Shown here: positions 33,762 to 56,123 of the stretch, piece by piece
Layout of the letters: each line of letters starts with the position of its first letter
How positions within the stretch are numbered: position 1 is the stretch's first letter
Origin: Nitrososphaerota archaeon
GTDB lineage: Archaea; Thermoproteota; Nitrososphaeria; Nitrososphaerales; Nitrosopumilaceae
Length of the DNA: 64,000 nt
Direction: 5' to 3'
Assembly: GCA_026708305.1 (NCBI GenBank)
Contig: JAPOVD010000001.1
Location: 159,497-223,496 of the forward strand
Program-made: the position numbers and the translations under genes
Notes under the pieces: generated by a model
The model's database searches: none
What the model was told of the DNA's origin: nothing
What the model saw: the letters and a program-made list of their open reading frames with translations, nothing else

Positions 33762-33853
33762 GGACTGGTAGTCTAGTGGCATGATGATGCCCTCACATGG
33801 CGTATAGAATATTATTCTCGCTAAGATCATGGGTTCAAATCCCATCCAGTCCA
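33762..33853 (+). tRNA. tRNA-Val (anticodon CAC) with noncanonical intron
   Basis: The acceptor stem GGACTGG pairs with CCAGTCC, discriminator A at 33853. The D-arm has GTC/GAT and a GG in the loop. The anticodon stem ATGCC/GGCGT surrounds loop CTCACAT with CAC at 33794-33796. The T-arm is ATGGG-TTCAAAT-CCCAT. Between the anticodon stem and T-arm lie 25 nt instead of about 5; removing 20 nt (33804-33823) gives a normal variable loop AGATC. CCA is not encoded. Confidence 0.93.
33804..33823 (+). other. Predicted 20-nt tRNA intron between positions 43 and 44
   Basis: The region folds as a bulge-helix-bulge. Exon GGCG pairs with intron CGCT (4 bp, one G-U), flanked by 3-nt bulges TAT and AAG; an inner stem AGAAT/ATTCT has an ATT loop. 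Cutting after the first base of each bulge removes exactly 20 nt and restores a full anticodon stem and 5-nt variable loop. The outer helix is weak, so it is a relaxed motif. Splicing would need the archaeal tRNA endonuclease. Confidence 0.75.
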
Positions 33854-33918
33854 CAAAAAACAAAATGAAAACATCTAGAAAATTATATAATATTCAAAAA
33901 GATACATAATATGATTAT

Positions 33919-52538: not shown

Positions 52539-54452
52539 TTGAATACTAATTTTTATCTAAGATCAAAATTCATTCCAGCTGGAGATCAACCACATGCAAT
52601 AAAAAAATTAACAATTGGATCAAAAAATAATAAAATTCAGACTTTGATGGGCGTTACTGGAAGTGGCAAAACATTTACGATTGCAAATATAATTAAAAAT
52701 CTATCGAAAAATACTTTAGTTATATCACATAATAAAACACTTGCTTTTCAATTATATACTGAATTCAAACAATTTTTTCCAAAAAACAATGTTGGTTATT
52801 TTGTAAGTTATTATGATTACTATCAACCAGAAAGCTATATATCACAAACTGATACATACGTAGAAAAAGCTACAAAAATTAACTCAAAAATAGAGAAAAT
52901 GAGATTAGATGCAACCACGATGTTGTTATCTGGAGAACCTACTATTATAGTATCTACAGTATCATGTATTTATTCTATAGGTGCACCAGAAAAATGGAAG
53001 AATTTAATATTATTGCTTCACGTAAATCAAAAAATCGCAATGTATTATGTAATTACAAAATTAATTAATGCAATGTATGAAAAAACAAACGATATATCAA
53101 AATCTGGTTGTTTTTATACAAGATTAAATGCATTATATATAACTTCACCATATAATGAATGCATCATAAGGATATTATTTAATAACAGTACAATAAAAAA
53201 TATTTGGATTTTAAACAAAACGAACTTAACTAGTAAAGAAGAAGTAAAAAAAATAAAAATTTTTCCAGCCAAACATCATGCAGTTGATGGAGACATAATA
53301 AAACGTGTAGTGAGATCCATTAAACGAGAATTAAAACTAAGGTCACAAGAATTAAATGGGATTAATAGGGAAAGATTAGAAACACGTGTCAATTACGATA
53401 TAGAAATGTTAGAGGAAACAGGCCATTGTAAAGGAATTGAGAACTATTCACGTTATTTTGACAATAGATCAATTGGAGAAAAACCATCATGCTTGTTAGA
53501 TTATTTTTCTAACGATTATTTGTTAATAATTGATGAGTCTCATGTAACAATACCACAATTACATGGCATGTATAATGGAGATCATGCACGTAAAAAAATG
53601 TTAGTGAATTATGGATTTAGATTACCTAGTGCATATGATAATCGGCCACTAAAATTCGAAGAATTTGAAAAATATATGAAAAATACTATATTTTTATCTG
53701 CAACTCCATCAAAGTACGAATTAGAAAAATCATCTCAAATAGTAGAACAGATAATAAGACCTACAGGATTAGTAGATCCTGAAATATTTGTAAAACCGAC
53801 TAAAAACCAAATGCAAAATATAATTTTCGAAATAAGAAAAAGAATGCAACAAAATAAACGTGTGCTTATAACCACGTTAACGAAGAGGATGGCAGAAGAT
53901 CTTACAGATTATATTTTAGAAAAAAATATTAGAGCAAAGTATATACATTCTGAGATCATCAATTTAGAAAGAACAAAAATAATAAACGAATTGCGTACAG
54001 GAGAAATAGACGTTTTAGTAGGAATAAATCTACTTAGAGAAGGATTAGATATACCTGAAGTATCATTAGTGATTATTTTAGATGCAAACAAAGAAGGATT
54101 CTTGAGAAATACAACAAGTTTAATTCAAACTTTTGGTCGTGCTTCTAGAAATAAAAATGGCGTTGTCATTATGTATTCTGACAATATTACAAAATCAATG
54201 CAAACTGCAATTGACGAAACAAATAGACGTAGAAAAAAACAATTGGAACACAATAAAAGATTACAGATAACACCAAAAACTATCAATAAACCAATAGAAG
54301 ATAAAATAGATAAAATATATAATGATGATATTAATGTATTGAACATTAAAATGAAAGATGCATCACATAGTCTAGATTTTGAAGAAGCTATAAAATATAG
54401 AAATATCATTAATGCTATAGAAAAAAAACGTACAAATACAAATTCAAAATGA
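52539..54452 (+). CDS. uvrB: Excinuclease ABC subunit B
   Basis: A 637-aa UvrB. Walker A GVTGSGKTFTIA near residue 38, beta-hairpin region YYDYYQPESYISQTDTYVEK, the DEAH-like box LLIIDESH, YGFRLPSAYDNRPL, helicase motif LREGLDIPEVSLV and motif VI QTFGRASRN. The C-terminal UVR domain (SLDFEEAIKYRNIINAIEKK) is intact. Residues ~165-255 (damage-binding domain 2) are strongly diverged and shorter than usual. TTG start. uvrC follows 66 bp downstream; uvrA is not in the window. Confidence 0.96.
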   Translation: MNTNFYLRSKFIPAGDQPHAIKKLTIGSKNNKIQTLMGVTGSGKTFTIANIIKNLSKNTLVISHNKTLAFQLYTEFKQFFPKNNVGYFVSYYDYYQPESYISQTDTYVEKATKINSKIEKMRLDATTMLLSGEPTIIVSTVSCIYSIGAPEKWKNLILLLHVNQKIAMYYVITKLINAMYEKTNDISKSGCFYTRLNALYITSPYNECIIRILFNNSTIKNIWILNKTNLTSKEEVKKIKIFPAKHHAVDGDIIKRVVRSIKRELKLRSQELNGINRERLETRVNYDIEMLEETGHCKGIENYSRYFDNRSIGEKPSCLLDYFSNDYLLIIDESHVTIPQLHGMYNGDHARKKMLVNYGFRLPSAYDNRPLKFEEFEKYMKNTIFLSATPSKYELEKSSQIVEQIIRPTGLVDPEIFVKPTKNQMQNIIFEIRKRMQQNKRVLITTLTKRMAEDLTDYILEKNIRAKYIHSEIINLERTKIINELRTGEIDVLVGINLLREGLDIPEVSLVIILDANKEGFLRNTTSLIQTFGRASRNKNGVVIMYSDNITKSMQTAIDETNRRRKKQLEHNKRLQITPKTINKPIEDKIDKIYNDDINVLNIKMKDASHSLDFEEAIKYRNIINAIEKKRTNTNSK

Positions 54453-54518
54453 CATAAATATGTTTAAAATTTTGTCATATAAAAAATATTCTTATATGCT
54501 AATTCATAAATAAGTTAA

Positions 54519-56123
54519 ATGATTTTTAATATCAATAATATAAAACAAATTCCACAACACACTGGTATCTATATAATGAAAAATGAATCTTCTGATATTT
54601 TATATATTGGCAAAGCAAAAAATTTAAGAAATCGTATACGATCATATTTAAATAATCAAGATGTCAAGACCAGAAAATTATTAAATGAAGTTTACGACAT
54701 AATATTTATACTAACTAACAATGAAAAAGAAGCTTTTCTCCTAGAATCAAACATGATAAAACAATATCGCCCCAAATTTAACATAGAACTAAAGGATCAG
54801 CAAAAATATACATATTTAATGATCACGAATGAAAAATTTCCACGACTCTCTGTAGCACGTAGATCAAAAGATGGTAAATTTATAGGGAAGGGTAAAGTAT
54901 ATGGGCCAATAACTGTAGGTAGTTCCAAAACATTGACAATTGGTAAATTGCGTAAAATATTTAAAATTCGAATATGTAAAAATTTACCATCAAAGGCATG
55001 TTTGGAATATCATATAGGCAATTGTGATGCCCCATGTGAATTTAAAAGTGCACAAATTGAATATAACAAAAATGTTCAAGAATTGGAAAAAATATTAGCT
55101 GATAAAAATGAATTAACTAATTTTAGAAATAAATTAGAAATTAAAATGATGCAATGTGCAAATTTATTAAAATTTGAAGAATCATTAGAAATAAAAAAGA
55201 CATTAGCTTTAATAGACGAACTTAATACTGAACAGAGTATAGAACATGTAAATTATTATGATGAAGAATATTTTGGTTTAAAAATAGATAAACAAATTGT
55301 GTATATCATGACATTTAGGCAAAAATATGGTGTGATTAGAGACAATAAAAGATTTTCATTTGATTTGATATGCGACAACACATTCAGTAATTTTTTATAT
55401 CAATATTATTCCACATCAGAAATTCCTAATGTGATAATATCTAATGAACTCCCTAGCAATGTTAAACTTTTAGAATTGTTATTTTCTGAAAAAAGCAATA
55501 AACAAGTAAAAATAATAACACCATTAAATATACGACAAAAAAACTTGATGAAGTTGATTATGAAAAATATCAATCAACACATGAGTATATTGTCACCAGG
55601 AACATTAGAATTAAAACAAATGTTAAAAATGTTAAATGAACCAAAAATAATTGAGTGTTTTGATGTATCTAATTATGGAAATGAATATGCAGTGGGATCA
55701 ATGTCTAGATTTGTAGATGGCTATCCTGATACATCAAATTATAAAAAATTTAGAATTAAAACAATATATGGTGTAAACGATTTTGCTATGATTTATGAAA
55801 TTGTAAAACGCAGATATTGTAAAATTAATCAAAAATTAATGCCAGATCTGATATTAATTGACGGTGGAAAAGGACAATTAAGAATGGCCGAAAAAGCACT
55901 ACGTGAGTTAAAATTTGATACACCATGTATATCTATTGCAAAAAAAAAAGAAAAAGTTTTCATGCGCAATGAAACTATTATAATGCCAAAAAATAATTTA
56001 GGATTAATGATTTTACAGCATGCTAGGGATGAAGCACATAGATTTGCAATAAATTATAATAAAACTATTAGAAAAAAATATTTAAGTAAATCACATCATG
56101 ATCATTTTGTGTTTTTGAAGTAA
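54519..56123 (+). CDS. uvrC: Excinuclease ABC subunit C, short form without HhH domain
   Basis: A 534-aa UvrC. GIY-YIG nuclease TGIYIMKNESSDILYIGKAK (~12-31), UVR motif LLKFEESLEIKKTLALIDEL, then the RNase H-like nuclease with ECFDVSNYGNEYAVG, LILIDGGKGQL and DEAHRFA supplying Asp, Asp and His. The protein stops about 20 residues later, where full-length homologues (~600 aa) continue into a helix-hairpin-helix pair. Overlaps the convergent luciferase-like gene by 22 bp. Confidence 0.95.
   Translation: MIFNINNIKQIPQHTGIYIMKNESSDILYIGKAKNLRNRIRSYLNNQDVKTRKLLNEVYDIIFILTNNEKEAFLLESNMIKQYRPKFNIELKDQQKYTYLMITNEKFPRLSVARRSKDGKFIGKGKVYGPITVGSSKTLTIGKLRKIFKIRICKNLPSKACLEYHIGNCDAPCEFKSAQIEYNKNVQELEKILADKNELTNFRNKLEIKMMQCANLLKFEESLEIKKTLALIDELNTEQSIEHVNYYDEEYFGLKIDKQIVYIMTFRQKYGVIRDNKRFSFDLICDNTFSNFLYQYYSTSEIPNVIISNELPSNVKLLELLFSEKSNKQVKIITPLNIRQKNLMKLIMKNINQHMSILSPGTLELKQMLKMLNEPKIIECFDVSNYGNEYAVGSMSRFVDGYPDTSNYKKFRIKTIYGVNDFAMIYEIVKRRYCKINQKLMPDLILIDGGKGQLRMAEKALRELKFDTPCISIAKKKEKVFMRNETIIMPKNNLGLMILQHARDEAHRFAINYNKTIRKKYLSKSHHDHFVFLK

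Follow-up and report, generated by a model that had tools for sequence, protein, structure and literature searches.

A predicted bulge-helix-bulge intron at position 44/45 of tRNA-Val(CAC) in Nitrosopumilaceae

A tRNA-Val(CAC) gene with 20 additional nucleotides after its anticodon stem raises three questions: whether the insert is an intron, at which bond it would be excised, and for how long the lineage has carried it. The gene lies in a window of 64,000 nucleotides (G000:C3:159497-223496), the whole stretch of DNA analyzed here, from a genome of 0.84 Mb that is 95% complete and belongs to an archaeon of the family Nitrosopumilaceae. Judging from the structure that the sequence can form and its comparison with relatives, the gene almost certainly harbors a small archaeal bulge-helix-bulge (BHB) intron that is predicted to be spliced; its site, 44/45, is non-canonical.

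The tRNA-Val(CAC) gene and the register of its insert

The first-pass annotation had placed a tRNA-Val(CAC) at 33762-33853, and this was borne out by ARAGORN, which called tRNA-Val(CAC) at 33762-33854, and by a match to Rfam RF00005 (33762-33853, 54 bits). Upstream lie ORFs that we take, from their translations, to encode succinyl-CoA ligase subunits and a short Cys-rich ORF that, by eye, is presumably L40e; the ORF after the tRNA is presumably an M3-type peptidase. In congener G002, the tRNA gene (L032) occupies the same place, with gene order alike by eye. Two other tRNA-Val genes were found in the host, one for tRNA-Val(TAC) (L010) and L011, both without an insert. Elsewhere in the window (52539-56123), adjacent ORFs have translations resembling, by eye, the bacterial-type excision repair proteins UvrB and UvrC. 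The features of the tRNA gene, with the evidence for each, are as follows.

33762..33853, forward strand: pre-tRNA-Val(CAC) gene, without encoded CCA (ARAGORN; Rfam RF00005, 54 bits; sequence)
33762..33804, forward strand: 5' exon, tRNA positions 1-44 (parse of row L031, the same tRNA)
33794..33796, forward strand: anticodon CAC (sequence, ARAGORN, parse of the gene)
33797..33798, forward strand: outer helix, 5' strand, positions 37-38, partner 46-47 (parse, comparison; absent from the minimum-energy fold)
33799..33802, forward strand: central BHB helix, 5' strand GGCG, positions 39-42 (parse, comparison; present in the minimum-energy fold)
33803..33805, forward strand: 5' bulge U-A/U, inferred 5' splice site after 33804 (scan; bulge in the minimum-energy fold)
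33805..33824, forward strand: predicted 20-nt intron between positions 44 and 45 (BHB geometry, orthologue comparison, intronless L191)
33806..33818, forward strand: inner helix AGAAU/AUUCU, 5 bp, loop AUU (parse, minimum-energy fold)
33819..33822, forward strand: central BHB helix, 3' strand CGCU, inside the intron (parse, comparison, minimum-energy fold)
33823..33825, forward strand: 3' bulge A-A/G, inferred 3' splice site after 33824 (scan; not formed in the minimum-energy fold)
33825..33853, forward strand: 3' exon, tRNA positions 45-73 (parse of the gene)
33826..33827, forward strand: outer helix, 3' strand, positions 46-47 (parse, comparison)

Positions 39-42 make up the 3' half of the anticodon stem once the tRNA is mature; in the 44/45 register they pair instead with the end of the insert at all four positions of a central helix (one pair being G-U), and this helix is set between two 3-nt bulges; the outer helix of the motif is 2 bp only. 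The precursor was scanned for excisions of 10-59 nt that combine a fully paired central helix with a sum of three or more pairs in the inner and outer helices. Seven excisions were listed, of which 33805-33824 ranked first and, by our reading, was the sole one to cut into neither the anticodon loop nor the T arm. Its removal leaves a normal tRNA of 72 nt with 7/7 acceptor pairs and 5/5 anticodon-stem pairs, and L191 is an intronless orthologue of this spliced form. The site is 44/45 and not the canonical 37/38, one nucleotide 3' of the anticodon.

By convention, the cut is placed after the second base of each bulge. When this rule was applied to eight host introns read as 37/38, the central helix was complete (4/4) for Ile, Tyr, initiator Met and Ser(GGA), had 3/4 pairs for Ser(CGA), Gln(CTG) and Leu(TAA), and had two pairs for Leu(CAA). 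The convention is a fair but not perfect guide to splice sites, and our confidence in the 44/45 BHB intron is slightly lowered because four of these eight lack a full central helix.

Across 200,000 shuffles of the insert, a full central helix together with an inner stem of at least 5 arose at a frequency of 0.00014, and together with an inner stem of at least 3 at 0.0011. The unconstrained minimum-energy fold of the precursor (-31.1 kcal/mol; z -3.0, with 2/200 shuffles equally stable) includes the intron hairpin and, of the BHB itself, the central helix and 5' bulge; here 33823, not 33826, is the partner of 33798, which closes the 3' bulge, and no outer helix forms. In the minimum-energy fold of the spliced 72-mer, a single-sequence prediction, the D/anticodon region is not a cloverleaf; unmodified tRNAs often misfold in such predictions.

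The first-pass annotation had described a 20-nt insert after the anticodon stem whose excision gives a normal tRNA, and both statements hold, but its boundaries, 33804-33823 (43/44), are one base off. The BHB intron that it proposed is likewise strongly supported by the comparison of orthologues described below, but not the placement of the motif at 43/44, where a single one of the four central pairs can form.

Comparison across the family and alternative readings

We searched 200 Nitrosopumilaceae genomes for tRNA-Val(CAC) genes in which GCGTA is followed by an insert, and 111 of them matched this pattern, in 20 of 22 genera (85 of the 119 genomes with at least 90% completeness and at most 5% contamination). 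The corresponding fixed-length pattern for an intronless gene matched 42 of the 200 genomes, in 3 of 22 genera (g5, g8 and g27). No genome matched both patterns and 47 matched neither exactly, so that 111 and 42 are lower bounds. A wider pattern without the GCGTA requirement matched 154/200, including one extra genome (G181), apparently a chance hit.

Parsing of 104 loci gave 101 rows; no row came from L147, a chance hit in Acidovorax, or from L200 and L202, which had been fetched without the target. The rows comprise 85 with an intron, 15 without and one chance hit (L122) that was excluded from the intron counts, and some rows repeat one gene; the tRNA of L133 is identical to that of L033 (congener G001), and that of L152 to L032 (congener G002). 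The introns in the 85 rows are 16-25 nt long, and 55 distinct intron-bearing sequences remain. These sequences are related, not independent, so that the counts below overstate the number of evolutionary events.

All four central pairs form in 54 of the 55 distinct sequences, the exception (L118) having one mismatch. When introns were dealt anew among the sequences in 500 trials, the full helix formed in a mean of 31.9 and a maximum of 41 of 55, and sliding the partner strand by -3, -2, -1, +1 or +2 gave a full central helix in 0/55 each time. The pair 39/-3 is U-A in 39 sequences, A-U in nine, G-U in four, G-C in two and mismatched in one (n = 55), and the inner helix likewise varies in step. 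Since position 39 is the partner of 31 in the anticodon stem as well (55/55), the end of the intron echoes the 5' strand of that stem. The outer pair 38-46, U-A in the window and C-G in the other 54 sequences, contributes a single double change. These genes point to a BHB structure that is conserved with covariation across the family.

The comparison also bears on the register. Splicing at 43/44 would yield an identical mature RNA in the host, since 33804 (position 44) and 33824 are both A, and the host product is thus compatible with either cut. In the 43/44 register, however, central pairing is reduced to 1/4 here and, among the 55 distinct sequences, to one pair in 16 and two in 39, never more, and the two cuts would give different products in 13/55, including congener L033, where 43/44 splicing would turn position 44 into U and only 44/45 leaves A44 as in the other relatives. 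We consider splicing at 43/44 very improbable.

Less likely still, in our estimation, is a stable long variable arm, as in a class II-like tRNA-Val, retained in the mature RNA. The insert does sit at the variable loop and form a hairpin, but its end pairs with the anticodon stem (completely in 54/55), which would destroy the mature anticodon arm; moreover, it is absent from 42/200 family genomes and from the host genes L010 and L011. Class II membership does not fit either, given that the isotype is Val and not Leu or Ser (or bacterial Tyr) and that the insert pairs with 39-42. A decaying pseudogene, with GUG read by tRNA-Val(UAC), can be dismissed with about the same assurance: the host has a tRNA-Val(TAC) gene, whose product could in principle wobble to GUG, but the acceptor (7/7) and anticodon (5/5) stems are intact, the gene scores 54 bits and holds the same place in a congener, and the changes in its intron are compensatory. 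On these grounds, we reject all three alternatives.

Probable inheritance and loss of the intron

Every one of the 55 distinct intron-bearing sequences has U43 and A44, the two exon bases of the 5' bulge; part of the parsed loci came from the GCGTA pattern, and the listed family intron matches of the wider pattern also read GCGTA. Both bases occur in 1 of the 15 intronless rows, L191 of genus g8, which has the anticodon stem ACGCA/TGCGT followed by A44 and GGTC. This is the form that 44/45 splicing yields in relatives with that stem, and in L191 the intron seems to have been lost cleanly. Both intron states occur in genera g5 and g8, and g27 is intronless only, among its matches; the intronless state in these three genera would represent losses rather than absent gains.

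Within Nitrosopumilaceae, the intron thus seems to be inherited and not newly acquired by the host. We lean slightly towards a history in which one non-canonical intron has been present in tRNA-Val(CAC) since the family ancestor or earlier, kept by structure alone as its sequence turned over, fixing U43-A44 while present, and lost in at least three genera, once cleanly (L191). If this reading of an old intron with losses is true, natural before-and-after pairs exist. The 111 intron-bearing and 42 intronless family genomes form a set in which the loss of such introns, and the constraint they place on the tRNA, can be studied.

Beyond the family, a sample of 300 genomes was searched at the level of the order, and among the matches listed, 50 rows are from outside Nitrosopumilaceae, chance hits included, with 25 of intronless length. 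Two of these listed matches, both in family f10 (L205 in G267 and L206 in G283), carry inserts at 44/45, 27 and 29 nt long, that form 4/4 central pairs. Also among the matches listed, and read by hand, an insert in G297 (f10) fits 44/45 and a 13-nt insert in G242 (f2) fits 43/44. The inserts in tRNA-Val(CAC) of f10 and f2 may reflect one old site or repeated gain. One further locus read by hand, G290:C19:4269-4318 in family f8, carries an intron of the type seen in the window's family, for which contamination or transfer is possible.

Splicing machinery, annotation and known introns

For the spliced 44/45 intron that we favor, the sequence suggests the following course. In the precursor, positions 39-42 would leave their normal anticodon-stem partner and pair with the intron end, giving a 4-bp helix flanked on either side by a 3-nt bulge; the two-subunit endonuclease of the host would cut in both bulges; and ligation of the exons by RtcB would then let the normal anticodon stem form. 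We infer cleavage and ligation, descent from the family ancestor, and no other role for the intron.

The host genome encodes an RtcB ligase (PF01139) and two PF01974 proteins, L070 and L088. The best match of L088 is M. jannaschii EndA (1A79; E 1.2e-25), and in this alignment L088 has no His at the catalytic position. The best EndA matches of L070 are 2CV8, which we take to be a Sulfolobus structure, 3P1Z and 3AJV, then 2ZYZ. In the alignment of L070 with the A. pernix endonuclease (query residues 7-179, E 7.1e-39), Tyr118, His126 and Lys157 fall on the A. pernix alpha catalytic residues, His126 corresponding to A. pernix His133, and the loop lysine Lys37 aligns, by our counting, with A. pernix position 44. 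In the sections of PMC6379350 consulted, 3P1Z and 3AJV are from A. pernix and 2ZYZ from P. aerophilum; 3AJV is listed there as an H133A mutant, in agreement with the Ala that 3AJV shows opposite L070 His126. The same sections link the endonuclease loop lysine to broad specificity.

The host genes thus probably encode a two-subunit splicing endonuclease, alpha plus beta, of the (alpha beta)2 type, with the full catalytic triad in one subunit only, which fits the two-protein endonuclease ascribed to thaumarchaea in the consulted parts of PMC4090602 and PMC3218864. The first-pass annotation had suggested checking the subunit type, and the answer is two PF01974 genes, one (L070) with the catalytic residues and the loop lysine and one (L088) without the catalytic His. 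It had also held that an intron at such a site needs an endonuclease of broad specificity. The gene type for this is present in the host, but "needs" is too strong because the tRNA-Val motif has a strict 3-4-3 BHB core and is not a relaxed motif, the case for which broad specificity matters according to the consulted text of PMC6379350.

ARAGORN, with introns on or off, reported no intron in this tRNA-Val(CAC), and reading of the raw sequence caught a non-canonical tRNA intron that the program missed. With introns off, the host tRNA-Ile(GAT) (L029) was called tRNA-Ser(TGA); with introns on, a 17-nt intron was found. Annotation of genomes in this group calls for a tRNA finder that is built for archaea and recognizes BHB motifs. 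Several other host tRNAs (L092, L098, L099, L101 and L102) have apparent introns outside 37/38. In the elongator Met tRNA, an 11-nt insert fits 30/31, without an inner helix, and Gln(TTG) has an insert in the D arm; two introns each seem to be present in Gln(CTG), initiator Met and Leu(TAA), the second ones partly read by hand.

A listing of the 44/45 intron in tRNA-Val(CAC) was not found in the literature searched on tRNA introns of thaumarchaea, as far as consulted in main text (PMC4033280, PMC4090602, PMC3218864, PMC6379350 and PMC8450103), nor did a search find papers that name the two congener isolates; 44/45 is not named among the sites in the consulted text of PMC4090602, whose list ends in "etc.". 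The intron has probably already been listed by automatic annotation of relatives, for example sequenced Nitrosopumilus. The kind of intron is already known, and this case is ordinary for its clade. The earlier remark that introns outside 37/38 are unusual may be true of archaea in general but does not apply to this clade, with 111/200 family genomes matching at the same site and with the thaumarchaeal introns covered by PMC8450103 as far as consulted. There, 107 non-canonical introns are reported in Thaumarchaeota genomes, and a BHB model built from Thaumarchaeota introns was made for tRNAscan-SE 2.0; the intron of the window shares with them the phylum, the BHB and a site outside 37/38.

According to the consulted text of PMC4090602, sites such as 45/46, 29/30 and 25/26 occur in Thermoproteales and other Crenarchaeota with a two-subunit endonuclease, and these introns combine a BHB, a site other than 37/38 and a two-subunit endonuclease, as in the host. 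The enzymes compare in part: the putative alpha subunit L070 is like that of the A. pernix endonuclease, with His126 and Lys37 aligned, whereas the host beta subunit is nearest to M. jannaschii EndA (1A79) instead. Different tRNAs of Thermoproteales have similar introns, for which transposition has been proposed (PMC4090602), whereas here one site in one tRNA was followed across a family.
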